Of a stretch of 29,629 nt of DNA, positions 755-22,583 are shown one piece after another (position 1 is the stretch's first letter; every line of letters begins with the position of its first letter). Both the position numbers and the translations under genes were made by a program. Origin of the DNA: a virus; IMG/VR virus record IMGVR_UViG_3300020454_000054, positions 1-29,629 of that record. One strand, 5' to 3'. Below the pieces are notes generated by a model. The model saw only the letters and a list, made by a program, of their open reading frames with translations. It made no database searches and was not told where the DNA came from.

Positions 755-3601
755 ATGTTATCACCCAAACTAACCAATTGCAAGGGATGTGCAAACATTC
801 CTGATTTATTGAGAAGAATAGACTGCAAGTTAGCAGAGCTAGGGAACAACTTATACAACAATGTTGTATTTATGTTGAATAAACCTATTGCTACTAGTCA
901 GATCTCTGAATTGTTAGTATATAAGCGTGTATTACAACATAGATATTGTGATACACATTATGCAAAAGGGTGCCCAGATGTTAGTACAGAGGATATTGCT
1001 AGCAAAGTTATTCGTCTTACTTCCGGGTGTGTACCACATTGTGGTGAACCAACTGTATGTGAAATAACTACATGTGCAATAACTACTTGTCCTAATCCTA
1101 GCACTACTACTACTAGTACATCCAGTACAAGCACAACTAGTACTACTTCTACAAGTACTACTAGCACTACTACTACTACAATCTATCCAGACTGTAGAGT
1201 TGAAGGATGCTTTACTGAAGTACAAAATGTTAATTGTGTGTGGACCTCAATGTTAAGAGGATCAGACTCACGTGATAAAGTATTTTCATGGAATCCAGTA
1301 TCAAATCAAGTACAAGAATTTGAACTTTCAAATGATCCAAGTAGTATAATCGGTGGAGGCTTTACTTCCTTAGGTGCAACTAGTGATACATTATTCCAAA
1401 TCCATACTGCACCAACTGATGCTTCTGGTGATGATGATGAACTAAAAGTTAGAAGATGGAACATACAAAATGGTCTATCTTATCTAAATGAGTATATTGT
1501 TCCTCCTATTCAAGGTTCACCAGATCAAGGAGGTGCTATACCTTCAGGTACTGTAATTGAACGTTGGAGTTATGCAGGTTTTGTTCCTATAAATACAAAT
1601 AGTCTATATGCTACTACATATTGGCAGGATAGTGCGGTAGCAGGTGGTATAGTTAATGACTCAGATAAATTGTATAAAATAGAACTTGGAGCAGAAGGTA
1701 TTGTTACTGTTACATATGTGTTCTCTGCACCTGGTTTTATATCTCCTGCTTTAAATAATTTATATCTGGATTCAACTAATGATAAATTAATAGCTTTTTC
1801 TACTACATACAATCCTAACGATCCTATTAATGGTAGAGATGAGCATTTAGTTCAGTACGATGTAATTAGTGGTGTAAAAGAAGTAGATTTAGATTTATCT
1901 ACATTAGGTATAACTAGTCCAGGAGCTCCACCTGTAGTGTTTGATGGATATAACATTCAAAGATCAGACCTGCAATTTTTACAGTTTGAAGATAAAAACT
2001 ATCTAGTTGTATCTGGTCTTGTAGTTTATGAAATGGATATTAATCCTCCATACAATACTACACTCGTAAACGGTAATACAGAGTTCTATGGTCCAGGACA
2101 ATTTAACAATCAATACAGACAGAATCGTTCTGCAACAGGAACATGTAGCACTAGATCGCTATTACTTACACCAGGTACAACAACTACCACTACAACACCT
2201 GCACCTACAACTACTACAACTAGTAGTTCAACAAGTACATCCACTAGTACCTCTACGAGCACTTCTACGAGCACTTCTAGTACAACTACTAGTACTACTA
2301 CCCCTGTACCTACAACAACAACTACAACAACTGTAGCACCTACTACTACAACTACAACAACCGTTGCACCAACAACAACTACTACCACAACTGTAGCACC
2401 AACCACTACAACAACAACTACTCCTGTGCCTACAACCACTACTACTACAAGTAGTTCTACATCTAGTACAACAACCACAACCACTACTGTAGCTCCAAGT
2501 GTTAAATTAAACTGGGACTTAGAAACTACTACAGCTTCTGATATAGACACTGTTAGTATGGAGATATTTGTAAATGGAGTATCTGCAGTTACATCATCAA
2601 TTACAACAGCAGCTAATCCAACTACTGGTACACATCTTTGTAATGATGGTGACACTATATTAGTGAGAATAACAAATAGTAAGTCAGGATCACATGAGTT
2701 TACTAATAGAATAACACTTGATGGTAGTATTGTAGTAAATAATACATCTACAGAAACTGACTCAAAAGTTACTGATTATACTTTTACTAAATCTGCTGGT
2801 ACACAAGAGATGGATATGATTGGAAATGTAGCTGCACCAATCACAATGAATTGGGAATTTGAAGGTGTAGAACCTAGTAGTACTAAGTCTTGGAGAGATA
2901 CAACACTTGAAATATTTAAGAACGGAGCTTCAGTGGTAGGTCCTTTAACATTTAATTCAGGTAACGCTACTGGTAGTGGAACATTTTCAGCAGCTGCTGG
3001 AGATGTAATAACTCAAAGTGTTGTTACAGATAATAATCCTTCAAATTATCCACAATTTGTAGACGTGGAACAATATAAAGGAAGTGTATCTGGAGGCTTG
3101 AGTCTACTAGATAATAGTGCAGGTTATATAGCAGCTAATGGTAATAGAACAGATACATTAACTTCATTAACCTTATCTGCTTCACCAACCGATCCAAAGT
3201 TAAAATATAAAGTTCTTTGTAGTGCTGCTCAAACTTCTACTATTACAGTAGATATAGAAGATACTGAAGATGGAGCTCAACCACAGTTCTTAAGTGTAAC
3301 CCAAACTTCTACAGCTGATACATTCTTTGAACAACCTTCTGATCCAACAAGTAATGGTACATATACTCAATACTACTTTACTGAAGGTGAGACTTATGAG
3401 TTAGAAATGTCTTACAAGAAATTAGGTCCTGGAGAAAATGATACTATATTCCAATCAGCGACAGGTGCAGGTTCTTCGTTAGTTTCAGATACTGACACAG
3501 GTACAGCTCAAAGTTTAATAGGACCTATTAATACTACTTTTACTCCAACTAATGTAGCTTCTGGACCTGTAGTAATCGGATTTAGTCAAACATCACCATA
3601 A
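755..3601 (+). CDS. Large modular tail adhesin with beta-propeller-like domain and two Thr-rich linkers
   Basis: The protein has 948 residues and no signal peptide. Residues 1-112 form a helical, Cys-containing head, probably the attachment or trimerisation part. A Thr/Ser linker (116-142) follows. Residues about 147-470 are repeated beta-strand units of the kind CVWTS...VFSWNPVSNQVQEF, which look like a beta-propeller. A second long Thr-rich linker (475-581) contains four period-10 TTTTTTT(V/P)(A/V)P-like units. Residues about 583-690 and 692-800 are two related beta-sandwich modules starting VKLNW and ITMNW, and the remainder (about 805-948) is also beta-rich. Rigid extended linkers between beta domains are typical of fibres or adhesins that reach for carbohydrate receptors. 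The order is seen directly; the receptor-binding role is an inference from architecture and from the collar fibre nearby. Confidence 0.8.
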   Translation: MLSPKLTNCKGCANIPDLLRRIDCKLAELGNNLYNNVVFMLNKPIATSQISELLVYKRVLQHRYCDTHYAKGCPDVSTEDIASKVIRLTSGCVPHCGEPTVCEITTCAITTCPNPSTTTTSTSSTSTTSTTSTSTTSTTTTTIYPDCRVEGCFTEVQNVNCVWTSMLRGSDSRDKVFSWNPVSNQVQEFELSNDPSSIIGGGFTSLGATSDTLFQIHTAPTDASGDDDELKVRRWNIQNGLSYLNEYIVPPIQGSPDQGGAIPSGTVIERWSYAGFVPINTNSLYATTYWQDSAVAGGIVNDSDKLYKIELGAEGIVTVTYVFSAPGFISPALNNLYLDSTNDKLIAFSTTYNPNDPINGRDEHLVQYDVISGVKEVDLDLSTLGITSPGAPPVVFDGYNIQRSDLQFLQFEDKNYLVVSGLVVYEMDINPPYNTTLVNGNTEFYGPGQFNNQYRQNRSATGTCSTRSLLLTPGTTTTTTTPAPTTTTTSSSTSTSTSTSTSTSTSTSSTTTSTTTPVPTTTTTTTVAPTTTTTTTVAPTTTTTTTVAPTTTTTTTPVPTTTTTTSSSTSSTTTTTTTVAPSVKLNWDLETTTASDIDTVSMEIFVNGVSAVTSSITTAANPTTGTHLCNDGDTILVRITNSKSGSHEFTNRITLDGSIVVNNTSTETDSKVTDYTFTKSAGTQEMDMIGNVAAPITMNWEFEGVEPSSTKSWRDTTLEIFKNGASVVGPLTFNSGNATGSGTFSAAAGDVITQSVVTDNNPSNYPQFVDVEQYKGSVSGGLSLLDNSAGYIAANGNRTDTLTSLTLSASPTDPKLKYKVLCSAAQTSTITVDIEDTEDGAQPQFLSVTQTSTADTFFEQPSDPTSNGTYTQYYFTEGETYELEMSYKKLGPGENDTIFQSATGAGSSLVSDTDTGTAQSLIGPINTTFTPTNVASGPVVIGFSQTSP
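1100..1180 (+). repeat. Thr/Ser-rich linker-coding repeat
   Basis: Codons ACT, ACA, AGT and AGC encode 27 Thr/Ser residues (residues 116-142 of the 948-residue adhesin), joining its helical head to the propeller-like domain. It is imperfect at the base level, with mixed synonymous codons. Confidence 0.9.
2177..2497 (+). repeat. Long Thr-rich linker with 30-bp periodic units
   Basis: This stretch encodes residues 475-581 of the 948-residue adhesin. It starts with TTTTTTTPAP, passes through an alternating Ser-Thr tract, and then has about four 10-residue units of the form TTTTTTT followed by VAP or PVP, a period of 30 bp. The units differ at synonymous positions (ACA, ACT and ACC are mixed; GTAGCACC versus GTTGCACC), so they are not recent perfect copies. 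The opposite strand and other frames give Val- or Gln/Leu-rich open frames here that are only shadows of the repeat. Confidence 0.92.
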
Positions 3602-3613
3602 ATTGAATCAACT

Positions 3614-6535
3614 ATGACAATAATTATAACATTAAGTTTTGCTGGAAATGAAACAGGTCCTTTTGATCTGTATTCTGACGCAGATAATTTTGCTGTAGCT
3701 TTTGCAACTAATGTAGCAAAGGCAGATTTATTAGCTGGTTATGAAGTTGAAGCTCCAGCAGGAACAACAACTGTTAGATTAGATGATTTAGGTGCTTTAT
3801 GTACTCCTAGTACAACAGATATATTTACATGTGCAAGTCCACCAGATTGTGGATTTACTGGTGTAATTTTATGTAATAGTTTTACAACAACAACTACTAC
3901 ATCATCATCTAGTACTAGTACAACAAGTACAACATATTTCCCAGACCCATTTGGTGTACCATGTATATGGTCTACTAATGGAGGAACTTCAGGTTTACTT
4001 GGTGTGTATGACTTTGATACAAACACACTAACGGATGTATTAGTTCCTAATGACTTTGTTGAACTTCCATCTGAAATTAGATCTATATGTGCTACAGAAG
4101 ATAAACTTTGGATAGTTAGTAATGTTGACCAAGGATCTAATCCAAACAATGACTTTGATGATGTTGTTTACATTAGAGAGTGGGATATAGATGCTACTGG
4201 TGTATCTCCTGTATTAACTTATGTAAGAGAGATAACACTTGAATCAGGTCAATTCCAAGGTTCTTTTAATGCAGGTAGTTCTGTATGGGCTATCGCTGCT
4301 AAAGATAATGATACACTTATTGTTGGGGTAGGTAATACCCATACAGCACCAGCAGGAACTGGTGGTTCTGGTCAACGTTGGGCTCATGAGTTTAGTATAT
4401 TAAATGGAGGAAACATTACGATAGGTAATAACGATTTATTAGGTAGCAAACAGATAGGTAGTACCAGTGGTGGTAATTCAGTCTATAGTAAATTAAGTAA
4501 TTTTACTTATACAAACTCAGATCAACTTGTAGTTGGATGGTATAAGTTAGACACTAATGCTACACCTCAGTATACACATTACATCCAAGTATTTAATGGA
4601 ACTCCATCCGATGCTGACTTTGGTTTAAATAATCAAGCTATTCAACAAATTACTCTTGAGGAAAATGGATATCCAGCATTTACACCTGCTTTTACAGGCC
4701 CAATGGATGTACCTTTCTGGGGCTTTAATAGTTTAGCACAAGTGCTACAACCAGAAACTTTAGATGTTTACACAATAAATCAATTACCTTTTTATGAGCT
4801 AACATTTGCTACTAGTCTAAATGAGTATGAATACCTAACTTCAGCTACACACTGTTCTAATATTAAATTTGATATAGCAGATAGTGCTTACTGTATTGAA
4901 AACGCTAGGTGGTTCCCTCCTTTCTTCTTTGATTCAGAGGGTAATCCAGCTAAACCGTCTAACGGAGGTGTATATGATCCTACTCCTCAACAATTCCAGT
5001 TTGCTGGAATGACTTGTACAGCAAGTATAGCAGAGAATGTAAATGCTTTTGATGATGTTAGACAATCTATAACTGAAAGCTACCTAGGATGTAGTGGTCT
5101 TTTAAGACCTGCATCGAGTGTACCTATTACAAGAGCAGTAAGTGGTAGCAACTTTAGTATTACAATTGAATTCCCTCAAGCAATGAATGACTTGTCAATC
5201 AGAACTGCTGTTTTAAATAGTAATAGTGATCTTACAAGTGGAGATGTATACTATGTAGAAACTAATGGTGGAACTCCAACACTTTCTATAAATCAAGGAT
5301 GTCTGGCTCAAGTTATAGGTAATAGATTTGGTGGTGGTATAGGTCCTGATGGACAACCTTCTGATAATCTTTCAGATGGAGACGATAGTGGTGTAGAAGT
5401 TAAAGTTACTGCTCCTAGCGACTATACATCTATGACTATCTATGGTAACGCACCAAGTGGTGGACCATTATTATTAGGATGTCCTCCTGTCAATTGTGAC
5501 AACATGATATTTGTAGAACAAGGAGGAACTACATGTAATACCTTTACTAATCCTGAAAGTGCAGGACGTTGTGTGGAACCCCCAATTGTTCCGATGGATC
5601 AGGTTTCTTATAATAAAATATTTGTTTGGAATAAGATTGCAGATACATGTACAGAAGTAGGACCTCCACCAGGTGAAGGTTTTGCATCAGGAGATATTTC
5701 TATAGGAGATAATATAGTTGTAATATCAGCATTCTATAATAACCCAGGATCTCCTTCAATCAAAAGGACCTTTATCAAATATGACTGTACAGTTATAAAT
5801 GGAGTTCCTTCAAATTTACAGTGGGATGAGAAGCAATATGTGCTACCTACTTTCTGGGATGACTTTGCTGGTACCTTTATTCCAAACATTGAAGTAATTA
5901 ACGATAACCAAATAGGTGTAACAGTTAAGAAATATCCTGCAGATGGAGCCCCATGTTGGTTCGATGTAAGATTCTTAATTTGTACATTCCCTGAAACAGG
6001 TGAGGAAATGATAGTTGATGAACAGTTCCAATTACCATGTGGTAGTGGAGATTCTGGAGATCTAGTAGTAACATATAAACCAGACGGTGTAACACTTAAC
6101 AAATTAATAACATTACAAACTGTAGAACCAGAGGTTGTAAATGGTGTGTTAGTTGGTAAACTTGCAGTTTGTCAGTACGATATAGCAACAGGAACCTTAG
6201 AGGTAGTTACTAAAGCAGAAGATTTTATAGATGATTCTGGTATTGGTGCTTCTCTTGCAATAGTAGATGGAGAGCTCTATGCAGGTTCATCAGTTTGGGC
6301 TAAAGTAGATTGGAACTATCCATACGCATGGACTATACTTCCTGATAGTGAATCACCATGTGCAGCTGGAGGAGCTGGTACAATACCTGCTTGTAGAATA
6401 AGTGATGGTTTTGAACCTAGTCCAGTAACTACCACTAGTACTACTACAGATCCTAATACCACAACTACAACAACCACTATACCCGGAGTAAGAACAATAT
6501 TTACTAGATTTACAGGATTTATAGAACAAGAATAA
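3614..6535 (+). CDS. Large modular tail adhesin: GPF module, Thr linker, two propeller-like domains
   Basis: The protein has 973 residues. Residues 1-65 are the repeated fibre module with the signature GPFDLYSD (about 15-22), shared with five other proteins here. A Thr/Ser linker lies at 91-107. Residues about 110-430 are beta-strand repeats beginning near PCIWSTNGG, similar in style to the propeller of the preceding adhesin. Residues about 430-627 form a separate beta-rich region. A second propeller-like region starts near C628 (NMIFVEQGG, then YNKIFVWNK) and runs to about 925. A second Thr linker (939-955) leads to an 18-residue tail. It starts 12 bases after the previous stop and is followed after one base by the protease gene. 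It is probably a receptor-binding or surface-decorating virion protein; the substrate is unknown. Confidence 0.8.
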   Translation: MTIIITLSFAGNETGPFDLYSDADNFAVAFATNVAKADLLAGYEVEAPAGTTTVRLDDLGALCTPSTTDIFTCASPPDCGFTGVILCNSFTTTTTTSSSSTSTTSTTYFPDPFGVPCIWSTNGGTSGLLGVYDFDTNTLTDVLVPNDFVELPSEIRSICATEDKLWIVSNVDQGSNPNNDFDDVVYIREWDIDATGVSPVLTYVREITLESGQFQGSFNAGSSVWAIAAKDNDTLIVGVGNTHTAPAGTGGSGQRWAHEFSILNGGNITIGNNDLLGSKQIGSTSGGNSVYSKLSNFTYTNSDQLVVGWYKLDTNATPQYTHYIQVFNGTPSDADFGLNNQAIQQITLEENGYPAFTPAFTGPMDVPFWGFNSLAQVLQPETLDVYTINQLPFYELTFATSLNEYEYLTSATHCSNIKFDIADSAYCIENARWFPPFFFDSEGNPAKPSNGGVYDPTPQQFQFAGMTCTASIAENVNAFDDVRQSITESYLGCSGLLRPASSVPITRAVSGSNFSITIEFPQAMNDLSIRTAVLNSNSDLTSGDVYYVETNGGTPTLSINQGCLAQVIGNRFGGGIGPDGQPSDNLSDGDDSGVEVKVTAPSDYTSMTIYGNAPSGGPLLLGCPPVNCDNMIFVEQGGTTCNTFTNPESAGRCVEPPIVPMDQVSYNKIFVWNKIADTCTEVGPPPGEGFASGDISIGDNIVVISAFYNNPGSPSIKRTFIKYDCTVINGVPSNLQWDEKQYVLPTFWDDFAGTFIPNIEVINDNQIGVTVKKYPADGAPCWFDVRFLICTFPETGEEMIVDEQFQLPCGSGDSGDLVVTYKPDGVTLNKLITLQTVEPEVVNGVLVGKLAVCQYDIATGTLEVVTKAEDFIDDSGIGASLAIVDGELYAGSSVWAKVDWNYPYAWTILPDSESPCAAGGAGTIPACRISDGFEPSPVTTTSTTTDPNTTTTTTTIPGVRTIFTRFTGFIEQE
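3884..3934 (+). repeat. Thr/Ser linker-coding repeat
   Basis: This encodes 17 Thr/Ser residues (91-107 of the 973-residue adhesin) between the N-terminal GPF module and the first propeller-like domain. Confidence 0.88.
6428..6478 (+). repeat. Thr-rich linker-coding repeat near the C-terminus
   Basis: This encodes residues 939-955 (TTTSTTTDPN followed by seven Thr). Only 18 residues follow, so the linker leads to a very short C-terminal tail instead of a folded domain. Confidence 0.85.
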
Positions 6536-6536
6536 T

Positions 6537-7958
6537 ATGAAATTAACACAAGACATACTAGATAAGATCAATGAGATCCATAAAAAATATCCTAATGCTA
6601 CATCTGTTGGATGGGGCAAGAAGATAGTTAATGGTGTTCATAATGGTGAGTATGCAATTAGTATTTCTGTTGCTAACAAAAAACCATTGTCTGAACTCAA
6701 ACCAGAAGAGGTGATAGAATCTAAAGTTAATATAGGAGGTGTAGAAATTCCAACAGATATTAATCAACAAGCACAAGCAGAATATCTATCTGTTTGTGGA
6801 GACAATCTATCACCTGGAGGTTGTGGATATATGTTTTCAGCTGTTAACAATTCAAATAACAGAGCTACTAATCAAATTATAATGGGAGGTATATCTGTGT
6901 CATCAGATAACAACGATTGTACAGTAGGAACATTAGGTGGTATTGTAAGACATACAGCAAGTGGCTGTGTTGTGGGTTTAACTAATCGTCATGTAACTAT
7001 TGGAGAACCATCATTTACAGCTTACCGAGATCCAAATGGTCTTATACAAAATGAATTTGATCCTCCTAATAGAATCTTTCAAACAGGTGAGGGATCTTGG
7101 AACTCATCAACTAGTTTAGGTGTAAGTTTAGCATACACTCCTGCAGCTCCATCATCTAGTGGTCAAAGTATTCAATGTGATGCTGCACTTGTATCAATAG
7201 AACAAAGTAGATTTGATACTACTATTGTTCCTGTTAATGAAAGATCTTGGAATCAACAAGGTTTACAATCTATAATGGGTAACAATCCACCACCTTTTGC
7301 TACTACAAATGAAATAGATAATTTAGAAGTTACTAATCCTCGTGCCTATAGTACTGGAAGAACACTTGGACCAAAAGGTTTAATGCCTAATTGTCCTATG
7401 GTTATAGTGCAAGTAGGGGTAAGTGTAAATGTTCCAGGAAACTGGGAAAGACCTCATGGACTCTGTCCTGTTGATTCACAGGGTAATATAGTAGGTACTT
7501 CTACACCAGTAAGTTATGATAATATAATTAAATATGCAAAACCTATACCAGCTGATCCTAACAATCAAGCAATTAATATATTTGAAGGAGACGTTAATGA
7601 ACAAAACCAAAATCTAGTCAACGGATGTTACAATCCTGTTTGGAAAGGTGACTCAGGTTCATTCCTACTAGCTGATATAAATGGAACAGTTAAAATAGTA
7701 GGACTGGTATTTGCAGGTTCAGTAGGAGGTACGACTGATAGTGGCGTTGCTTTATTTACGTATGGATTTGCATGTAGAATAGATAAAGTAGCAGAACAAT
7801 TAGGAATAGAAGCTTATGTAGCAGGTAATCAAATGGTTGATCCCTCTACTATCGAATATAAAACAATTAATGGTCTAAGTTCAGACCCAACAATAACATG
7901 TGATGGAGAAGTATATTCTCAAATGGGTCTCACTGATACATTACAAGATAACTGTTAA
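6537..7958 (+). CDS. Trypsin-like serine peptidase (chymotrypsin fold) in the tail-fibre cluster
   Basis: The protein has 473 residues. The three catalytic motifs are in the right order. LTNRHV places the His at 152, CDAALVSI places the Asp at 215, and GDSGS places the Ser at 373 with an oxyanion-hole glycine before it. A late strand-like segment KIVGLVFAG (386-394) follows the Ser as in the family. Residues about 22-75 (SVGWGKK, YAISISVANKKPLSEL, then GGVEIPTDI) match the N-terminal region I know from bacterial trypsin-like proteins of unknown role. No signal peptide is visible, which suits a virion component or a cytosolic late protein. Flanked by adhesins, it may process fibre proteins, cleave host surface proteins or be ejected. 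The activity is well supported, the target is not known. Confidence 0.85.
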   Translation: MKLTQDILDKINEIHKKYPNATSVGWGKKIVNGVHNGEYAISISVANKKPLSELKPEEVIESKVNIGGVEIPTDINQQAQAEYLSVCGDNLSPGGCGYMFSAVNNSNNRATNQIIMGGISVSSDNNDCTVGTLGGIVRHTASGCVVGLTNRHVTIGEPSFTAYRDPNGLIQNEFDPPNRIFQTGEGSWNSSTSLGVSLAYTPAAPSSSGQSIQCDAALVSIEQSRFDTTIVPVNERSWNQQGLQSIMGNNPPPFATTNEIDNLEVTNPRAYSTGRTLGPKGLMPNCPMVIVQVGVSVNVPGNWERPHGLCPVDSQGNIVGTSTPVSYDNIIKYAKPIPADPNNQAINIFEGDVNEQNQNLVNGCYNPVWKGDSGSFLLADINGTVKIVGLVFAGSVGGTTDSGVALFTYGFACRIDKVAEQLGIEAYVAGNQMVDPSTIEYKTINGLSSDPTITCDGEVYSQMGLTDTLQDNC

Positions 7959-7978: not shown

Positions 7979-9127
7979 ATGTCAACACAAAATTGCTCAA
8001 ACTGTTATAACGGCTGTACTGAAATTACTTCAGACAAGTGCGTTAAATATACAGGTGTAGATGTTCCTATATTGGGAATACAAAATGGAGACTCTCTATC
8101 TTTTGTAGAGCAAGCTCTTATTACCTTTTTAGGTTCTACACTTGATGGTACAGGTATACAACCTGTAGTCCCTCCATCAGATATATGTCCTGTAGTACAG
8201 GCTAATCTGGATGAATGTAATCCCTTATCTTTAAATAATTACCTTGTAGGTATCATTAAAACTATTTGTGAGTTAAATGATGAAATACAACAACTAAGTG
8301 GGAGCGGAAACACTGACAAACAATCTTCACCTGCATATAATGTAGAGTGTGTATCCGGAGTTTCAGATAATACTAGTACACGAGATGTCCTACAACAAAC
8401 CATAATAAAGTTATGTGAAGTTGAGCAATCACTGAATACTTTTATTACCGATGTTACTACTAACTACGTACAAATTGTTGACATAAATACGTACATAGAG
8501 AATTATCTTAAGAGTGACCCTAGTCAAAATCTGATAAGTAATAGAATGGTTCCTTTTTCTGCACAACCTTATTTCGGAGAATTAAGTGTATTTGATTCAT
8601 CAGGAGCAGGTATAGGAATTTGGGATAGAATATTCTTATGTAATGGACAGAACGGTACACCAGACTTAAGAGGTAGAGTTCCTGTTGGATCTACATCAAT
8701 GGGTAGTACTGCTATGGATGCAGAGGTTGATCCAGCTCTTGCAGGTAATCCTGCATATGATTTAAACAATGCAGTTGGTACTAATAGTATAACATTACAG
8801 TTAGCTCAAATACCATCTCACACTCATAGTGCTAGTGTAGTTACATCTATAACTCCAGCAGATCATTGTCATTATACAATGAATGTAACTTCTACTAATG
8901 TATCAAATCCTCCTAATGCTGGTAATTATTTATTACAAAGTCAAGGAACTGGTGGTAACTTAGGATATGCTCTAAGAGGAACTGATGCTATACCTGATAT
9001 AGCAAAAACAGATGATGTTACACTAAGTGCAAGCAGTACACCAACTATTCAACCTGCTGGTGGAGGAGTGCCACATGATAACTTCCAGCCTGGACTTGGA
9101 TCATATTATATAATTTACATACCTTAA
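7979..9127 (+). CDS. Tail fibre with T4 gp12-like collar (receptor-binding) domain
   Basis: The protein has 382 residues. The N-terminus is Cys-rich (CSNCYNGC at 6-13, then SDKCVKYTGVDVPILGI), a head I associate with fibres of Bacteroidota phages. Residues about 55-180 are mostly helical and could trimerise. The C-terminal part carries collar-domain marks: FLCNGQNGTPDLRGRVPVG (219-237), an SHTHS metal-binding motif (280-284) and the ending HDNFQPGLGSYYIIYIP (366-382). In the phage T4 gp12 and Mdp families, this region forms an intertwined trimer that binds metal through the HxH histidines and contacts host surface sugars. It follows the protease after 20 bases and is probably the short tail fibre or receptor-binding tip. 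Confidence 0.88.
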   Translation: MSTQNCSNCYNGCTEITSDKCVKYTGVDVPILGIQNGDSLSFVEQALITFLGSTLDGTGIQPVVPPSDICPVVQANLDECNPLSLNNYLVGIIKTICELNDEIQQLSGSGNTDKQSSPAYNVECVSGVSDNTSTRDVLQQTIIKLCEVEQSLNTFITDVTTNYVQIVDINTYIENYLKSDPSQNLISNRMVPFSAQPYFGELSVFDSSGAGIGIWDRIFLCNGQNGTPDLRGRVPVGSTSMGSTAMDAEVDPALAGNPAYDLNNAVGTNSITLQLAQIPSHTHSASVVTSITPADHCHYTMNVTSTNVSNPPNAGNYLLQSQGTGGNLGYALRGTDAIPDIAKTDDVTLSASSTPTIQPAGGGVPHDNFQPGLGSYYIIYIP

Positions 9128-11956: not shown

Positions 11957-13201
11957 ATGTCTGAGAATCAGAGTCTTCTTAATCAACTGAAAGAGTTGTT
12001 GAGAAGAAAAAGAAGTGAACAGTGGTATGCTGATAAATTAGGTATCACAGTTGACGAAGTAAAAGAATTGAAAAAAGAACTTAAGGGTAAGAAATATGAT
12101 GAAGGAGATAAGTTTTTAGATAACGCAACTAACAGTAAACAATTCGAAGAAGCAGTAAGAAAAGTAAGTAATGAACAAGGGACAATTGAAAGCACAATAA
12201 CTCTAGACTTTGAACCAAAAAGTGATATAGAGTTAGCACAATTACACAAAATAGACCTAGAAAGGTATGTTATTACAAACTACTGGTCTAAAGTTCTTCC
12301 TAGTGGGAAGTTCACATCTTCGGTCTTTTCTAGAAGAAAAGGTGCGAAAGATTATACAGCTGAAGATTTCAGCAAGTTCTTAAAGAACTATAAGTCAAAC
12401 TACATTCCAATCCCTTCACCTAAAAGAGATGATTCGAAACTAATTGCAGATGTTGAGTTATCTCTTTCTGATTACCATTTAGCTAAGAAACATGTTGATG
12501 GAGATAATGATCCACAGGTAAGGGTCATGAGATTCTTTGATGTTGCAGAGAATCTAACAGACAAGGTTAGATCAGTTTATGATATAAACAAGGTAGTCTT
12601 TCCTATATCTAATGACTTCTTTCATACAGATAACTATCACAAATCTACAACTAACGGTACTCCTCAGGATATAATGATGGATTATGCATCAGAGTATGAA
12701 TTGGGTTTTAACGTTCTGGTAGATACTATTAAGATGTTAAAGGCTAATAGTGAACATGTAGAAGTAATACTTGTACAAGGTAATCATGATAGAACTAAGT
12801 CTTATTATTTGGCTCACGCTTTGGATATATATTTTAAAGCTGATGACAATATAACTTTTGTAAGAGAAGAAGGTTTAATAAAAGCTACAGTGGTAGGTAA
12901 AACATTTATTGGTTTTCATCACGGTAACTGTAAAATTGATGCCCTTCCTCTATTATTTGCAACACATCCAACTTATAGTAAATGGTTTGGTGATGCTACA
13001 TATAGAGAAGTACACACAGGTGATAAACATCACTATATGGCTAAAGAAATAAAAGGGGTTAGAATACAACAGATGCCTAGTTTATCTGGAGCAGATAGAT
13101 GGCATAAAGATAATAACTTCGTACATAGTGTACGAGCTGCTTTAGCCTTAGTATATGATAGTGAGGTAGGAAAGGTAGCTGAATTTGAAGAAAGAATATA
13201 A
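11957..13201 (+). CDS. Calcineurin-like metallophosphoesterase with N-terminal helical DNA-binding-like region
   Basis: The protein has 414 residues. Residues about 14-45 (SEQWYADKLGITVDEVKELKKEL) resemble a helix-turn-helix. The metallophosphoesterase motifs follow in order: SDYH (Asp172, His174), SNDFFHTDN (219-226, in place of GDxxD), GNHD (275-278), GFHHGN (319-324) and GDKHHY (355-360, in place of GHxH). These residues would hold a two-metal centre and cleave phosphodiester bonds, as in SbcD/Mre11-type nucleases or other phosphodiesterases. It opens a new unit behind a terminator and promoter-like box and leads into the neck genes, so it may act on DNA ends during packaging or repair, or be a structural-operon passenger. 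The enzyme class is secure; the substrate is not. Confidence 0.85.
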   Translation: MSENQSLLNQLKELLRRKRSEQWYADKLGITVDEVKELKKELKGKKYDEGDKFLDNATNSKQFEEAVRKVSNEQGTIESTITLDFEPKSDIELAQLHKIDLERYVITNYWSKVLPSGKFTSSVFSRRKGAKDYTAEDFSKFLKNYKSNYIPIPSPKRDDSKLIADVELSLSDYHLAKKHVDGDNDPQVRVMRFFDVAENLTDKVRSVYDINKVVFPISNDFFHTDNYHKSTTNGTPQDIMMDYASEYELGFNVLVDTIKMLKANSEHVEVILVQGNHDRTKSYYLAHALDIYFKADDNITFVREEGLIKATVVGKTFIGFHHGNCKIDALPLLFATHPTYSKWFGDATYREVHTGDKHHYMAKEIKGVRIQQMPSLSGADRWHKDNNFVHSVRAALALVYDSEVGKVAEFEERI

Positions 13202-13346: not shown

Positions 13347-13550
13347 ATGGCACCCAAATTAAAACCAAGCAGCAAAGAATACTTAAGAGATTCAAATGGT
13401 AGAATGCTTCAGAAGTGGGAATGGAAACATTACACAGTAGCAAGTACCTCTACTGCCGAACTCAAAAAACTATTAACTAGTCCCTCTATGACCAGAAAAA
13501 AGAATGTCATACAGAGAGAGCTTGACAAAAGAAAATTATGGCAACACTAA
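13347..13550 (+). CDS. 67-residue basic protein, unknown
   Basis: The protein is basic, with LRDSNGRMLQKWEWKHY in the middle and a helical end (TRKKNVIQRELDKRKLWQH). Its last 13 bases overlap the start of the ring-type gene at 13538, so translation is probably coupled. I do not recognise a family. Small basic proteins in this place of Bacteroidota phages may be minor head or neck proteins. Confidence 0.65.
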   Translation: MAPKLKPSSKEYLRDSNGRMLQKWEWKHYTVASTSTAELKKLLTSPSMTRKKNVIQRELDKRKLWQH

Positions 13551-14263
13551 GAAAATTAGTTTCAGACATTCGTGGAACACATAAAATCTTATCTACTGAT
13601 GCACTTATCACAGACAGAGTTATTGCGTCTGAGATAAGAAATCAGTCACAAATGTTAATAAAAAGAGAAACTAATTTAAGAAAGTTATGGGCTAGTGATA
13701 CGTTATACACTACTATCAATTGTTTAGAGATGAAGGAAGTTCCAATCTCTGAATGTTGTGACTATGTAGATGAATGTACAGTATCAAGAACTATAAATAA
13801 GTTACCTAGAATATCTGAAGGTAACTATCAATATGTAATACAAGGTGTATACTCCATAGATGCTATGGGAGGTAGAGGCACCAAGTTAAAAGAAATAACT
13901 ATTAATAGATACTTAAATCTATTAAAATTACCTGTAGTAAAGAATGATTATTACTTCTGGATCTCCAATGGATATCTGTATGTAAACAATCCTTTACTAA
14001 AGGCTATTAGAATGGCTGCATTTTTTGAAGAAGATGTGCCAAGTGAAGTATTGTATCCAGAATGTGGATGTGGTGGTAACGTATCAGATGAAGAATACTG
14101 CATAAATCCTTTAGATAAGGAGTATGCTTTACCTGGTTACTTAGAGTCTTCTGCTCTAGGATTAGTATCACAAAAACTATTAGCTACATACTTCCAAATT
14201 AAAACCGACATGACTCAAGAGGGTATAGATGGACAAGCTCCAAATGCCCAACCGACTCAATAA
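13538..14263 (+). CDS. crAss-like neck/ring structural protein
   Basis: The protein has 241 residues. The N-terminal stretch, with SDIRGTHKILSTDALITDR and ASEIRNQS, followed by RKLW, CLEMKEVPISECC and VIQGVYSID, is a pattern I recognise from conserved structural proteins of crAss-like and related Bacteroidota phages encoded near the portal-to-tail region. A helical N-terminus (about 1-55) is followed by a mixed alpha/beta body with YYFWISNGYLYVNN (about 140-153) and a Cys cluster CGCGG (176-180). In the known phiCrAss001 virion, proteins of this region form stacked rings below the portal. Which ring this one forms cannot be told from sequence alone. Its gene overlaps the previous one by 13 bases. 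Confidence 0.75.
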   Translation: MATLRKLVSDIRGTHKILSTDALITDRVIASEIRNQSQMLIKRETNLRKLWASDTLYTTINCLEMKEVPISECCDYVDECTVSRTINKLPRISEGNYQYVIQGVYSIDAMGGRGTKLKEITINRYLNLLKLPVVKNDYYFWISNGYLYVNNPLLKAIRMAAFFEEDVPSEVLYPECGCGGNVSDEEYCINPLDKEYALPGYLESSALGLVSQKLLATYFQIKTDMTQEGIDGQAPNAQPTQ

Positions 14264-14755: not shown

Positions 14756-15769
14756 ATGTCATACTACTATAAATACGATTTTGTATCCCCAGAGCCTCTA
14801 TATGCTACAGTAAAAGAAGAGCTTAAAAGTTATTTTGATACTGGTGCAGTAGATGATTTATTATTCCCCACCTATCTAGACAAGTGTCTAAGAAAGATGG
14901 GTAGAACAACTTATAAAATTACTACAGAAGTATTATTTATAGAAGACTTTGAGGCACGTCTACCAGATAACTTTCATGCAGTGAGAGAAGCTTGGATGTG
15001 TGCTGTAATACCAGGAAACCCTTATCCAGCAGCTTCATCATTTTATAGTCAAGCTGCAAATGCTACTACTATTCAAGTTGCACCTCTAACTATAGGAGGT
15101 ACCCCTTGTAATAATCCTGATTGTCAACACCCAAGTTGTGATGGTACATGTATGCCTGAAATAGTACAAGCTGTATATAAAACAAACAGTGAAATACCTA
15201 GAGCATATAGAAGAACTTATCTACTTAAACCAGGAAATATATCAGCACGTAAAAGCTGTACTGTAGATTACACTAACTCCTGGAGTCAGTACAATCAACT
15301 GGCTTTATCTGGTCGTGATTTTACACCAGGTTCTTCCTCTTATGATTCATTTGATGTAAGAGATAATAAATTTGTTACTAACTTTAGAAAAGGTGTAATA
15401 CATTTAGTATTCTATTCTACTGATTATGATAAAACAGGTAATCAATTAGTTCCAGATAACTATCGTGTTAGAGAATATATAGAGTCATTTATTAAATTTA
15501 AAGTATTTGAAACTTTAACTAATCAAACCAATGATGAAACATTTAATCAGTTACAAACTAAATTAGCTTACCATAAACAAGTGATGGATGAAGCATGGAT
15601 AATGGCAGAAACAGAACTTAAAAAAGAAACAGCTTATCAGAAACAGAGAAGAGTTGTTACAGATCTTAATCGAAACAATATGTATGAATTACCTGATGCA
15701 AAATCTCAAGTATCAGGAAGATACTCCAACAGATATAATACTTTGTGGAGACGTAATGGGTGGAGTTAA
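14756..15769 (+). CDS. crAss-like neck/ring (tail tubular-type) protein
   Basis: The protein has 337 residues. Its N-terminus (YYKYDFVSPEPLYATVKEELKSYF) and LDKCLRKMG, EDFEARLPDNFHAVREAWMC resemble the conserved ring or tail-tubular protein encoded just before the muzzle gene in crAss-like phages. A Cys/His cluster (C118, C123, H125, C128 and C132, in PCNNPDCQHPSCDGTC) may bind zinc in an inserted loop. The C-terminal third is helical (about 240-310), followed by a basic, Arg-rich end. Position directly before the muzzle gene, 10 bases away, supports an adaptor role between portal and muzzle. The exact ring is not certain. Confidence 0.75.
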   Translation: MSYYYKYDFVSPEPLYATVKEELKSYFDTGAVDDLLFPTYLDKCLRKMGRTTYKITTEVLFIEDFEARLPDNFHAVREAWMCAVIPGNPYPAASSFYSQAANATTIQVAPLTIGGTPCNNPDCQHPSCDGTCMPEIVQAVYKTNSEIPRAYRRTYLLKPGNISARKSCTVDYTNSWSQYNQLALSGRDFTPGSSSYDSFDVRDNKFVTNFRKGVIHLVFYSTDYDKTGNQLVPDNYRVREYIESFIKFKVFETLTNQTNDETFNQLQTKLAYHKQVMDEAWIMAETELKKETAYQKQRRVVTDLNRNNMYELPDAKSQVSGRYSNRYNTLWRRNGWS

Positions 15770-15779
15770 TAAATAGTTT

Positions 15780-18700
15780 ATGGCTACTAGAAAAGAAATA
15801 GAAGACGCAAAAGCTAAAAAAGCTGCTGCTGCTAAAAAAGATGATAAAGCTCAGAAAGGGCAAGTGAGGCTTGAATTTAATCAAGCTCAGACTGGCCTTA
15901 ATATGGATAGCACTATCAATCAAGTAAAGACAGGTAGTCTTACTTATGCATTGAATGCTACTGTAGAGAACTTTGACTCTAGTTCTGTAAACTATCAGAA
16001 TGAACCTGGTAATGAACCATGTTTAACATTCCCTGATGGTTTTCAACTTATAGGTAATTATACTATTTCTGAGAAAAAGCTAAATATATTCTTTCTAGCT
16101 AACCCTCTTACTGGCGATAGTCAGATTGGTTTTCAATATAATAATGACTGTGTATATCAAGAGGTACCACTTGGAGATGCTAGATGTTTAAATTTCAACA
16201 TCGATTACCCCATACACAAAGTTGTTCATAGAATAACAAACTGTAGTACAGAAATATATTGGACAGACGGACTCAATCCTAGAAGATATCTAGATCTAGA
16301 CAACATTCCCTATCTTATAGATCCTAATTCAGACCCTGAATGCGACCCTGTACTAACAGGAAACGTAGACTGTAACCAACTTAAAATACAACCTAACTTT
16401 GATATTCCATTTGTAGAAGTTAATCAAGTAGTAGATGTAGGATCATTAGTTGCTGGTACTTATCAGTTTGCGGTACAATATTCAGATGCAACAGGTCAAG
16501 ATTTAACTTCTTATTATTCTGTTACTAATCCTACACCTATTTCCGATCCTTTAATAACCACTGTAAACTTCAATTACCCCGTGGGTAAATCAATAGAAGT
16601 AAAAGTATCTAACTTAGATCTAACAGGACAATATCAGTATTTTAATTTAGCTGTAATAAAAACTATCAATGAAGGAACAACAGTAGAATTAGTAGGAACT
16701 TATAATATTACTGAAGCAGAAGAAATTATCACCTACACTGGTGCAGACCAAAATCCTATACAATTATCTATTGCTGACATCTTTGAGAAATATCCTTACT
16801 ATGATGTAGCACAAGACTTGACATCTGTTCAAGATACTTTGATATGGAGTAATTTAACTTCAGTAGATAGAATAAACTATCAACAAATAGCTAGTCAAAT
16901 AACCCTACAATGGGAAAGTTATAGACTTCCTGCTGGAGAAACTTATGCTAATGAATTAAATGCAGTAAACTATCGTGGATACATGCGTGATGAAGTGTAT
17001 GCATTTGATATAGTGTTTCTTTTAAAGAACGGAAAACAAACAGATGCATTTCATATACCAGGTCCTCTAGTAGATCCTAATCCTCAACCGGATGTTCCTA
17101 ACACTAATGATGATTTTATCGGAGAACCTGAGTACTATGTAGGAGATGTAGGATACAGCCCTTACTGGAAGATATATAATAATGCTACAGTGGTAGGTCC
17201 TTTTGGAGAACTACCAACAGATCCAGACTACAAAGGACCATGGAACTATGGAAACTTTGCATATTGGGAGTCTACAGAAAAGTATCCTTGTAATACAGAA
17301 ATGTGGGGAGATTTAGCTGATCAACCTATTAGACACCATAAGTTTCCAGATGTATCTGTAAGTGGTATTGTAGAGAATCCTGCAATTGTATATGACGGTA
17401 ATAACATTGTACCTACAATGCAAGATGCAAATGCTCTATATCCTCTAGGAGTAAAAATTGATAATGATCAGATATCACAACTGATTCAATTATCTAGTCT
17501 TACACAAGAACAGAAAGATGATATTGTAGCTTTTAAAATAGTAAGAGGAGATCGTGGTACAAACAGATCAATAGTAGCAAAAGGTATTCTTAGAAATGTA
17601 AATAAGTATGTAAAAGATGACCAGGACTATTACTATCCTAACTATCCATATAATCAAGTATCTGGAGAGGACTCGTTCTTACAAGAGAATAACAATGCTT
17701 GGAATTATAAATCTAAGTCATGGCTTTTATATATGCCTGACAAGGCTGTAGATTTTTTCCTTGGACCTTGGTATAGTGCATATGGTATAGAGATAGATGT
17801 AAATGATGAAGATGGAGTATTTGTATATACTAGTATTGAAAATGGTAAACAAACACAAGCCACTATTTCACCTAATTGTATTTTAGAAGTTTGTTCCTTA
17901 ACAAGACCTGTAGCTCTGAAAGGTGTTATAACAATAGGACCTGGAGACTTTGATGTATGGATTGGTGCTCATAGCAGTAACTGCCAATTCATCTGGATAC
18001 CTGGCACTGATAAAGGCCCTTGTAGTAGATATGAATTAAAATGGAAAAATCCATTTAACAATTTTAATTTTGATGGAACAGTAAATTGTTCTGCTACTCT
18101 AAATTGGGGTAATAATATTTTTGAAGGTATTGACAGAGTTAATGTGATTACAAATGCTGACCCTGAATTTGATGTTTATGGTACAAACAATATTGATTTT
18201 GATGAAAATCCTGGAGGAGCACCAAACGGAGCAAGTTATGGATATGAAGGAAATCACCCCTATGCACCTACTTGGCGTGAACCTTCTGGTAGTTGCTGTT
18301 CAAATCCTCGTATTTTTCTAACTCAAATTTATCCAGGACCTTGTACTGAACCAGATCCTGATAATCCAGAAGAAAACTATGACGTAATATCATATCCTCC
18401 AAATACCTTTGATCCAAATTACCCCTGTCCGGATTCTGATGATGAAACAAGAGCATGTCAGACATGTGTTAAAGTAGAAGAAAATCCAGATAATATACAA
18501 CCTTGGCCAGGTCCTGGATTTGGACAACCTACTAATCCTCTTCCTCTTTTTGATGACAGTGTTGCTAGTAATGCTGATTATACCGGACCTGGATTTCCAA
18601 CTCCAGTAAATGAGTGGGATACTTTTACTCCAGCTGAAAATGCAAATGACACTGGTTCTGGAGCACAAAATAATGATGTCTCTAAAAGACACAGTAGAAG

Positions 18701-21700
18701 ATCCTGTTTAAAATGTGACAGAGATATACCTATTAAACCATTAGATGGGGCTGACTATGAAGAAGCAAAAGATATTCTAGATAAGCAAATCTTTAATTCA
18801 CCAGACACATCTTTTGGACAACCATTTTTAGGAAGTGTACTTAAGCTAGAAAGTGTAATGTTTGGAGCAGGTAAGGCTCATTTTGTAGAGGTTAAAGACA
18901 ATGCTAAATACAAATTGCTTAGTAAAGAAGCACAAGAAGATGCATTATCAAGTTCAGAAAGAGTGGCTAGTATGGGTGCAAATGGTGAGTTTGATGCTGG
19001 TATAATGTTTACCGTCTATCAGTCATATCTTACTATATACATAAATGGTATTACAAGAAAGAATTATGCAATGTCTTTCAACTCAAGAGCAAACTATGAT
19101 TATCATTTTCCTATCAGCAATAATACTGACGGTGGTATCAAGCAAAGAGAAATAGATCTTACTAGATATCTTATACCAGGTGTACAATCTTTTAATAATA
19201 ACCAACCTCCAATTAACAATTGGAATAGAGAATCTTCAGTCTTTATTGATACTACTATCAGTGATGATATTTTAGCACTTCCTTTACCTCAAAATACTCC
19301 ATCTTTACAAGGAGCAGACGGTGAATCTAGTATGGTAGAATACTCAAGATTTGCCATAGGAGAATCTGGAGCTTGTGATAAACCAGGACAAGAGCAAGAT
19401 ATAAAGGTAGTATCATATTACGCTTCTATGAAAAATATCATCCCTAATCAATGGGGACAGATCAACTCCTTTAAAAGAATAGATACAGGTTACCAGAAAC
19501 TTGTAACAGCTACTGGAACAGATACAGTATTTGGTGGAGATGTATTCATATCTAGATTTGCATTTAAAACTAAAATACCATTCTTTATAGATAATAGAGT
19601 AAATGCACCAGACGACTCAGATATATTCTTTGATGAGTTAGGTAATGTTGCTTATCCTAAATACTGGCATTCTGCTAGATCTATCCTAGAACCTTATACT
19701 GTAACAGCAGGAGACGATGATCAGTTAATGTATAATCTTATATCAACTAAAGCACATAATCTTGATTGTCCTAGTGATCCTTCTTTAATTGGTCCACCTC
19801 CTAATGACCAAGAACCTTATGCAGGAACTTATAGATCATTTTATGATGGGTATATGTATTTATTTGCATATGGTGTTCCTAACTTCTATTGTGAAAGTGT
19901 ATATAATACAGACTTAAGACAAGCATTTAATACACAAGAAGGAGACTTCTGGCCTCATGTTAGTTCTGGTATTCCTGATGATTGGGTTCAAGAAACTAAT
20001 GTACCAATTGCACAGGACAATACTTATTACTATAATGTAACATACTCTAAACAGAATAAAGAAAATGTGTTTAGTCAAATGCCTCCAGATTGGAGTGATG
20101 TATGTTATACGTTTTATCCATTTAGAGCTATATACTCAGACACCCAAGGGGATAGTTCTGATAACAGAGTTAATAACTGGTTAGTTTACAGAGCTTTATC
20201 TTACCATGATTTCCCACAAAACTTCGGTAACTTAACATCATTAGATGGTATGATGGACAGAGGTATATTGGCAAGATTTGATAATAAAGCTTTATTGTAT
20301 AATAAACTATTAACGATTGACACTAACAATCCTCAAGCTGCATACATAGGTAATCCTAGATTATTCGATGGTGCACCTCCTATAGATTTTGCAGAAACAG
20401 ACTTAGGATACTTAGGATCTCAAAATAAGTTTCTACTTAAAGTTCCTTATGGAGCAATAACTGCTGATGCTAAAAGAGGTCAGATATTCTTAATGAGTGG
20501 TAACAAAGCTGTAGATCTAACTAAATTTGGATCAGGTGTAAATAGATTTATTACAAATCATTTACCATTTGAAATATTAGAATACTTCCCAGATGCATAT
20601 GTAGACAATCACTTTAAAGGAATAGGACTACACGGAGTGTACGATAGTAAATTTGATAGAGTTATCATTACTAAGCTAGACTATATTCCTCTTGATGATA
20701 ATATAAGATATGACAGTGGAAGTCAACGTTTTTATGTAGATCAAGTTATTGATGATCAGATAGTTGAAACAGAAGTATTTTTATTTGATAGAGAATATTT
20801 CTGTAGTAAGTCATGGACTTTATCTTTTGATTTTAGTACTAAGAGTTGGATATCTTTTCACTCCTATCTACCTAATTTCTACATTGGAGAAAACAACTTC
20901 TACTATTCTGGTATAAATAGTTGCTGTACACAGTTTACTGCTGTATTAGATACTCCAGATAGAAGTAGAATTGAAGATGAAGAACCACAAATAGAAATGG
21001 TGGTAGCTGCAAATATTGGTTCAGTGTTACCAATTACAACTACCTCTACAAGTACAGAGGCACCTTTATTTACTACTACTAGTACTACAACTTTCAATGA
21101 TTGTCAATTTGATATAGGTTTAGCTGAAGAACTAAGTTGTGGATTAGAAGGAATTGGACTTATTACCATTCCTACTCCTACTACTACAACAATTTGTTCT
21201 AGACCTGCACCTCTTGCACAAGCTACTTTTACAGAAGGTTATCAGATTATGACTGAACCTACTCCTATTATAGGATCATCAAGTGCAGCAAGTGCATGTG
21301 CTATAGGAGCATTTTTAGCAAATCTAAATAGTAATGATGAGGCTGTAGCTATAAACTTCACATTCGAATATTCAGGAACATCAGCTAATTTTGCTAATGT
21401 ATCTATAGGAGAAGTTCTTTATCTTGGTGATGATGATTCTTGTACAAGAGTTCCTGATGGTTGGTATACTAGTGTAGATATAAACTCTTATCAAACTGCT
21501 AATTATGTTGAAGATGGTATATTAAGAGAACAAGTGCCATGTGATTGTAATACATTAACTACTACAACTACTATGTTTACTGGAGATCTAGATGAATGTT
21601 GTGGGCTTATTTATAATGATGATGATGGTAATGTAGTTCTTCAAAATGTAGAACAAGATTGGGTTAACTATGCCTATATAAATATTCCTGGTTATACTTC

Positions 21701-22583
21701 TGGTAAGTTAGCTGTTGGCCCAACTGCTCTATACGGAGTTTCACCAGGTATCAGTACATCATTTAAGAAATGGACAATTACAACAAGCCCATGGACTGTA
21801 GTAGCAGATTCAGATTTAGTAATAGCTGATAATGCATTTGGTACAACTGCTGGAGTGGTAGTTAAAGATGACAGTGCAATTATTGCAATAGATACAGCTC
21901 AAGGATATATAGTAGAAATAGATACAACAAGTGGAATTCCATCACAGAAAATTCTTTTACAATCTGGTTACACATATCCTACTAATTTATTATATACAAC
22001 TGAAGGCAAACTAATAACAATTAGAGAAGTAACAGCAACAGGAGCATTTGAATATGTTCAGTGGGATTATGATAACGCAGTAGCAACTCCAGAGATAGTT
22101 TCTACTATTACTAGTAGTGAATTTAGTGGAGTGGATATAACAATCCATTCGTGTGACTGTGACATTATAATTGTATGTAAAAGTGCTATCAATACTCAAT
22201 ACTATGCTCAGTTTTCTGTGGCACCTTTCTCTCCATTTGAAGTAGTTCTAGAAGGAAATAGTTTGGGTACAGGAAAGATTGAAAACTACTTTAGTCCAAC
22301 AAACATAACTCAACTTGCATCATGTGTTAGTCCAAGTGGAGGACCAACAACCACAACAACTAGTACTACGCTTGCTCCAACAACAACTACCACTACAAGT
22401 ATACAACCTAATTGTTCTAAGTGGGAAATTACTGGACCAATAGCAATAAGTTATACAGATTGTAGTGGACTACCACAAGTCGTATCTGTTGCAACAGGTC
22501 AGACTAGATTCATTTGTGCAAATACTAATACACCTGGTGCTTTAGGACCATCAGCTACACTAATAGGTGCTTGTGATATATAA
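15780..22583 (+). CDS. Muzzle / P22 gp10-like stabilisation protein with added adhesin modules
   Basis: The protein has 2267 residues. After a Lys/Ala-rich start, residues about 25-1735 hold the crAss-like muzzle core. Marks are NPRRYLDLDNIPY, TYQFAVQYSDATGQ, VNYRGYMRDEVYAFDIVFLLKNGKQ with DAFHIPG, and near the end KSWISFHSYLPNFY and FYYSGIN. The muzzle surrounds the tail exit and seals the DNA channel. From about 1753 the protein changes character: Thr linkers (1753-1771, around 1801-1804 and 1927-1931, and 2190-2207) separate an adhesin module (about 1806-1922), a propeller-like domain (about 1937-2185) and a final domain (2212-2267). In relatives I expect the core to continue into a conserved C-terminus; here that part appears in the next gene. 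A stretch at about 835-980 is Cys-, Pro- and Asp-rich and may be an insertion. Confidence 0.85.
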   Translation: MATRKEIEDAKAKKAAAAKKDDKAQKGQVRLEFNQAQTGLNMDSTINQVKTGSLTYALNATVENFDSSSVNYQNEPGNEPCLTFPDGFQLIGNYTISEKKLNIFFLANPLTGDSQIGFQYNNDCVYQEVPLGDARCLNFNIDYPIHKVVHRITNCSTEIYWTDGLNPRRYLDLDNIPYLIDPNSDPECDPVLTGNVDCNQLKIQPNFDIPFVEVNQVVDVGSLVAGTYQFAVQYSDATGQDLTSYYSVTNPTPISDPLITTVNFNYPVGKSIEVKVSNLDLTGQYQYFNLAVIKTINEGTTVELVGTYNITEAEEIITYTGADQNPIQLSIADIFEKYPYYDVAQDLTSVQDTLIWSNLTSVDRINYQQIASQITLQWESYRLPAGETYANELNAVNYRGYMRDEVYAFDIVFLLKNGKQTDAFHIPGPLVDPNPQPDVPNTNDDFIGEPEYYVGDVGYSPYWKIYNNATVVGPFGELPTDPDYKGPWNYGNFAYWESTEKYPCNTEMWGDLADQPIRHHKFPDVSVSGIVENPAIVYDGNNIVPTMQDANALYPLGVKIDNDQISQLIQLSSLTQEQKDDIVAFKIVRGDRGTNRSIVAKGILRNVNKYVKDDQDYYYPNYPYNQVSGEDSFLQENNNAWNYKSKSWLLYMPDKAVDFFLGPWYSAYGIEIDVNDEDGVFVYTSIENGKQTQATISPNCILEVCSLTRPVALKGVITIGPGDFDVWIGAHSSNCQFIWIPGTDKGPCSRYELKWKNPFNNFNFDGTVNCSATLNWGNNIFEGIDRVNVITNADPEFDVYGTNNIDFDENPGGAPNGASYGYEGNHPYAPTWREPSGSCCSNPRIFLTQIYPGPCTEPDPDNPEENYDVISYPPNTFDPNYPCPDSDDETRACQTCVKVEENPDNIQPWPGPGFGQPTNPLPLFDDSVASNADYTGPGFPTPVNEWDTFTPAENANDTGSGAQNNDVSKRHSRRSCLKCDRDIPIKPLDGADYEEAKDILDKQIFNSPDTSFGQPFLGSVLKLESVMFGAGKAHFVEVKDNAKYKLLSKEAQEDALSSSERVASMGANGEFDAGIMFTVYQSYLTIYINGITRKNYAMSFNSRANYDYHFPISNNTDGGIKQREIDLTRYLIPGVQSFNNNQPPINNWNRESSVFIDTTISDDILALPLPQNTPSLQGADGESSMVEYSRFAIGESGACDKPGQEQDIKVVSYYASMKNIIPNQWGQINSFKRIDTGYQKLVTATGTDTVFGGDVFISRFAFKTKIPFFIDNRVNAPDDSDIFFDELGNVAYPKYWHSARSILEPYTVTAGDDDQLMYNLISTKAHNLDCPSDPSLIGPPPNDQEPYAGTYRSFYDGYMYLFAYGVPNFYCESVYNTDLRQAFNTQEGDFWPHVSSGIPDDWVQETNVPIAQDNTYYYNVTYSKQNKENVFSQMPPDWSDVCYTFYPFRAIYSDTQGDSSDNRVNNWLVYRALSYHDFPQNFGNLTSLDGMMDRGILARFDNKALLYNKLLTIDTNNPQAAYIGNPRLFDGAPPIDFAETDLGYLGSQNKFLLKVPYGAITADAKRGQIFLMSGNKAVDLTKFGSGVNRFITNHLPFEILEYFPDAYVDNHFKGIGLHGVYDSKFDRVIITKLDYIPLDDNIRYDSGSQRFYVDQVIDDQIVETEVFLFDREYFCSKSWTLSFDFSTKSWISFHSYLPNFYIGENNFYYSGINSCCTQFTAVLDTPDRSRIEDEEPQIEMVVAANIGSVLPITTTSTSTEAPLFTTTSTTTFNDCQFDIGLAEELSCGLEGIGLITIPTPTTTTICSRPAPLAQATFTEGYQIMTEPTPIIGSSSAASACAIGAFLANLNSNDEAVAINFTFEYSGTSANFANVSIGEVLYLGDDDSCTRVPDGWYTSVDINSYQTANYVEDGILREQVPCDCNTLTTTTTMFTGDLDECCGLIYNDDDGNVVLQNVEQDWVNYAYINIPGYTSGKLAVGPTALYGVSPGISTSFKKWTITTSPWTVVADSDLVIADNAFGTTAGVVVKDDSAIIAIDTAQGYIVEIDTTSGIPSQKILLQSGYTYPTNLLYTTEGKLITIREVTATGAFEYVQWDYDNAVATPEIVSTITSSEFSGVDITIHSCDCDIIIVCKSAINTQYYAQFSVAPFSPFEVVLEGNSLGTGKIENYFSPTNITQLASCVSPSGGPTTTTTSTTLAPTTTTTTSIQPNCSKWEITGPIAISYTDCSGLPQVVSVATGQTRFICANTNTPGALGPSATLIGACDI
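21036..21092 (+). repeat. Thr/Ser linker-coding repeat at the end of the muzzle core
   Basis: This encodes residues 1753-1771 (Thr/Ser broken by EAPLF), where the muzzle core stops and fibre-type modules start. Confidence 0.85.
22347..22400 (+). repeat. Thr-rich linker before the last muzzle module
   Basis: This encodes residues 2190-2207 (TTTTTSTTLAP and six Thr) between the propeller-like domain and the 56-residue terminal domain. Confidence 0.85.

Follow-up and report, generated by a model that had tools for sequence, protein, structure and literature searches.

Genes at the protease locus

The window analysed here is the whole stretch of 29,629 nucleotides, a 29.6-kb IMG/VR fragment. The following features were located in it:

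2840..3598, + strand: C-terminal adhesin module (about 250 aa) of ORF 755-3601, found at the C-terminus of the protease protein in many relatives
3614..6535, + strand: upstream adhesin, 973 aa, in a gene order common to most crAss-like relatives
6428..6484, + strand: Thr-rich linker before the tag of the upstream adhesin, read from the sequence
6485..6532, + strand: tag GVRTIFTRF (6485-6511) and the last seven residues, TGFIEQE, from tag tests across relatives
6537..7958, + strand: NAL1-like serine protease, 473 aa, stand-alone gene (ATG at 6537, stop at 7958)
6537..6776, + strand: NAL1_N-type N-terminal domain, residues about 1-80, from PF25608 matches in relatives and profile alignment to NAL1
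6990..6992, + strand: His152 of the triad (LTNRHV), from the sequence and the alignment of relatives
7179..7181, + strand: Asp215 of the triad (CDAAL), same basis
7653..7655, + strand: Ser373 of the triad (GDSGS), same basis
7979..9127, + strand: tail fibre/collar protein directly downstream of the protease (PHROG 8763, E 1e-17; PHROG 8469, E 2e-14)
13538..14263, + strand: tail ring protein CrAss_Ring_2 (Pfam, above cut-off)
14756..15769, + strand: tail ring protein CrAss_Ring_1 (Pfam, above cut-off)
15780..22583, + strand: muzzle-type tail protein whose C-terminal modules are Thr-rich, aligning to a csAssE-Sib gene annotated as muzzle protein

The two ring proteins together with the muzzle-type protein indicate a crAss-like tail, and judged by this gene content the protease ORF lies in an adhesin/fibre operon of a crAss-like phage. 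No major capsid, portal or terminase gene was annotated in the 29.6-kb fragment. By its muzzle protein the phage is closest, among isolates, to Leptolyngbya phage Lbo-JY46 and Cellulophaga phages phi17:2 and phi4:1; the genus of phi17:2, Lightbulbvirus, is unassigned in the taxonomy. The muzzle gene was common to nine IMG/VR records, and the protease was present in eight of them, the match being absent from the ninth, a fragment of 16.8 kb.

Several other features were observed in the window. The N-termini at 3614, 9435, 9710, 10879, 11117 and 22586 share a related short domain, with GPF-[DN]-[LI]-[FY]-S-D in most of them, and a similar GPF-D-L-Y-S-D-type domain follows the protease in loci L076, L079, L093 and L094. 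An exonuclease-like gene (11957-13201; PHROG 704, E 1e-52) lies within the structural operon. Downstream of the muzzle gene, the large protein of ORF 23452-25917 carries an HExxH-like motif, HEDGH (25180-25194), and may possibly be a metalloprotease, a reading without Pfam support; in ORF 25922-29554 the stretch 28535-28639 resembles a peptidoglycan-binding motif by eye, with no Pfam hit.

Conservation, fold and predicted pocket of the protease

His152, Asp215 and Ser373 were found exactly at the residues and in the motifs that the original prediction had named, in the order H, D, S and with GDSG around the serine, as in S1/PA-clan proteases. Profile-guided scans recovered relatives on about 115 IMG/VR contigs (count from tables). 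Retention of the triad among relatives had been set beforehand as a test of that prediction, and H-D-S was aligned in 84 of 90 distinct sequences at identities down to about 25%; five of the remaining six were incomplete or unaligned at a triad column and one carried a change of D to E. GDSGS was near invariant among relatives at 25-30% identity. Because the seed pattern used for finding relatives included the His motif, only the conservation of Asp and Ser is unbiased. The triad pattern is not due to chance and is strongly conserved.

Protein A0A7S9XDX3 of Virus NIOZ-UU157 matched over near full length (39% identity, TM 0.86-0.90). No protein-search match was obtained in GenBank phages, nor in plasmids except for a marginal Streptomyces hit (E 0.07). 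This hit, L207 3872-5752, is a Streptomyces canus plasmid protein annotated as DNA/RNA non-specific endonuclease, and it is its N-terminal part that resembles the protease. Two seed scans of GTDB genomes returned no relative, a result that, with seeds this narrow, argues only weakly for absence. Profile search gave no protease in four cultured or sequenced relatives, phi17:2, Lbo-JY46, csAssE-Sib and FpV4, the alignment search having been run without a positive control. In the literature, with mostly open-access coverage, no report of a trypsin-like protease in crAss-like phages was found.

An AlphaFold2 model built from 64 sequences was confident (pLDDT 87.4, pTM 0.91) and remedied the poor model obtained with eight sequences (pLDDT 36.7). 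The top PDB match of this model in Foldseek was rice NARROW LEAF 1 (NAL1; E 2e-18), followed by Streptomyces griseus protease B and alpha-lytic protease (E about 1e-7 to 1e-6), and these matches point to a double beta-barrel fold. The family profile also matched NAL1 (E 2.6e-9). PF25608 was matched by 4 of 31 relatives (best E 1.6e-5), so that a NAL1_N domain before the protease domain is indicated by the family profile and these four members, the window protein alone falling below the Pfam cut-off. PHROG 20754, 'protease', was matched by the window protein (E 8.9e-8) and by 26 of 31 family members, and this profile also matches two control genomes. By profile search and model, the window protein belongs with NAL1, a chymotrypsin-fold serine protease. 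At the level of the predicted fold, and with the neighbouring genes in agreement, the original idea of an S1-fold serine protease inside a fibre operon is upheld; the family match that it assigned to the N-terminal region is real, the family being of NAL1 type and detectable for the window protein only through its relatives.

The word 'trypsin-like' has to be dropped: the closest relative of solved structure is NAL1, and the predicted S1 pocket is of another kind. When the pocket was assigned by inspection, counting back from Ser373, most rows carried Pro, Gly and Gly at the positions aligned with 189, 216 and 226 (Pro367, Gly394 and Gly410 in the window protein). Position 367, where trypsin has Asp189, was Pro in 79 of 87 aligned rows and Asp in none. 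Such a pocket argues against Arg/Lys specificity; it looks chymotrypsin-like rather than trypsin-like, and the predicted P1 preference may be like that of S. griseus protease B or alpha-lytic protease.

A C-terminal tag on the upstream proteins

The ORF directly upstream of the protease gene was found to end in a short strand-like peptide with the core T-[IV]-[FYW]-[TM]-x-[FW], which stops 1-7 residues from the C-terminus. A strict regular expression for this tag matched 47 of 66 ORFs directly upstream of a protease and 1 of 386 control ORF ends taken from other adjacent ORF pairs; by clade, the counts were 28/29 against 0/199 for crAss-like phages and 19/37 against 1/187 for other phages. As this expression had been shaped on the same data, a matrix was trained on the crAss-clade tags only and applied to non-crAss loci, where the upstream ORFs scored well above controls (medians 3.5 versus -3.6, p = 2e-10, and 17 of 37 above the controls' 99th percentile); p-values of this kind overstate the case because the relatives and rows are not independent. 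Roughly one in two non-crAss upstream ORFs, including those of L177, L181 and L198, lacked the strict tag.

The association was also approached in reverse by exact scans of 2.9 million IMG/VR viral contigs with three back-translated tag patterns. These scans returned 21, 6 and 9 stretches, of which 21/21, 5/6 and 9/9, respectively, lay on protease-bearing contigs. Profile search of the 27 stretches from the first two scans detected the protease in 25. Of the others, L209 is a small part of a contig on which the protease had been found before, and L232, where the plus-strand ORFs near the match are all short, is probably a chance hit. The nine stretches of the third scan were matched to known carriers by contig name. 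The tag is new here, as is the association between it and the protease gene.

With linkers masked, the tagged upstream proteins fell into three larger groups and two single ones, some links between the large groups being at E < 1; the tag is carried by proteins of several unrelated families. Its codons vary at every position, through synonymous changes and swaps among Phe, Tyr and Trp, which points to constraint at the protein level. A DNA signal is unlikely for the same reason. A copy of the first strand of the GPF-D-L-Y-S-D domain was also considered as the origin of the tag and rejected (matrix test, p = 0.97). The recurrence of the tag before the protease gene across unrelated viruses suggests that the tag and the enzyme work as a pair.

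Modular fusions and the proposed role

In the window the protease stands alone, and the last module common to its relatives is found instead on ORF 755-3601. Many crAss-like relatives have a longer adhesin of about 770 to 1285 aa that begins with the protease as its N-terminal module and continues with Thr-rich linkers and exchanged modules; the same modules recur in neighbouring adhesins. When fusion was defined as a C-terminal extension of at least 100 aa, 38 of 82 distinct relatives were fused and 44 alone; on a tree of these 82 sequences, 11 changes between the two states were counted, at least seven of them forced by well-supported branches. In non-crAss loci, Thr/Ser/Pro-rich linkers occurred in 26% of protease ORFs, 32% of their neighbours and 3% of distal ORFs.

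Tandem proteases were also observed. In locus L148, which has five tandem protease ORFs, a tag-like strand closes each of the four ORFs that precede a protease and is missing from copy 4, after which no protease comes; this pattern was noticed post hoc, and only one of the four ORFs satisfied the strict expression. ORF 3302-5989 of this locus also holds a degenerate second copy without the His and Ser motifs. Tagged ORFs in head-to-tail order were found in L148 and L068, and the ORF before the second tandem protease was untagged in L052 and L117.

The roles suggested at the outset, which were fibre maturation, shedding of bound fibres and cutting of host surface proteins, had to be re-weighted in view of the fusion of the protease to adhesin modules in relatives and of the conserved tag on the upstream adhesin. 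The reading that we tentatively favour, with a chance somewhat short of even, is a fibre-borne NAL1-like protease of the host-adhesion apparatus, docked through the tag and acting on host surface proteins. A flexible Thr/Pro-rich tether usually carries the short beta-strand-like tag at the end of the neighbouring adhesin, and docking of this tag on the protease would hold the enzyme among the adhesive arms; in many relatives the enzyme is also joined covalently to further adhesive modules. On contact with a cell, the protease would most likely cut host surface proteins near large hydrophobic residues, and thereby expose or clear the receptor or release bound fibres. The tandem arrays of L148 and L068, like the tag and the linkers, are consistent with docking. 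Counting against this reading are the non-crAss upstream ORFs that lack the strict tag, the untagged ORF in L052 and L117, and the negative profile searches of the four relatives named above. A more general version, in which a strand tag on unrelated adhesins serves as an adaptor that recruits NAL1-like proteases to the virion and lets tandem tagged proteases link head to tail, seems to us plausible but rather to be doubted.

The main rival is a maturation protease whose cut within the tag of the upstream adhesin at assembly, following the aromatic residue for instance, would free or activate the fibre. The closeness of the tag core to the C-terminus, the interchange of Phe, Tyr and Trp at the aromatic position and a predicted Pro/Gly/Gly pocket that would suit a large hydrophobic P1 all speak for it; the tag-like C-termini on some tandem proteases and the fusion of the protease to untagged adhesive modules are accounted for more poorly, and we consider it unlikely, though a serious contender. 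Alternatively, the protease might be no part of the virion but act within the host or during lysis, sharing the operon and nothing more; this is improbable, since it has been fused repeatedly to Thr-linked adhesin modules and its position amid fibre and tail genes is conserved.

Type V pili of Bacteroidetes are built by protease-driven donor-strand assembly, and by analogy the protease could trim a subunit into which the C-terminal tag strand of the adhesin then inserts. The strand-like tag next to the protease gene and the head-to-tail tagged ORFs would suit such assembly, but the tag is unlike the first strand of the GPF-D-L-Y-S-D N-terminal domain in the matrix test already mentioned, and we give this alternative little credence. 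Least probable is a catalytically dead domain kept for its fold: the degenerate copy in L148 indicates that dead copies can arise, but the retention of the triad across nearly all distinct sequences and the near-invariant serine motif in distant relatives run counter to it.

The known phage adsorption enzymes mostly target polysaccharides or peptidoglycan, and a fibre-borne protease, if true, would add protein barriers to this list. The tag offers a concrete and cheap test with one peptide (GVRTIFTRFTGFIEQE) and one enzyme; if it is a docking signal, it would also be a handle for finding adhesin-protease pairs in many uncultured phages.

Among known systems, the tail barrel and muzzle of phicrAss001 (PMC10172136) have homologues of ring 1, ring 2 and muzzle in the window, and a search of the text of that atlas for the terms 'protease' and 'peptidase' found neither. 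The NIOZ-UU157 protein is similar to the window protease, yet it is uncharacterized and unannotated. PHROG 20754 is a shorter profile of 324 positions that bears only the name 'protease', with no tag. S. griseus protease B and alpha-lytic protease, which are free bacterial enzymes, share the fold, the alignment covering the protease domain only. Plant NAL1 has been reported to form oligomers and to have cellular substrates. With NAL1 (PDB 7y77, 8pmg, 8hau; Pfam PF25608/PF25819), the phage protein shares the N-terminal and chymotrypsin-fold domains, TN-x-HV and GDSGS; it differs in its identity of about 16% over the structural alignment and its scores below the Pfam cut-offs, and in being encoded in a phage adhesin operon, with relatives fused to adhesin modules.
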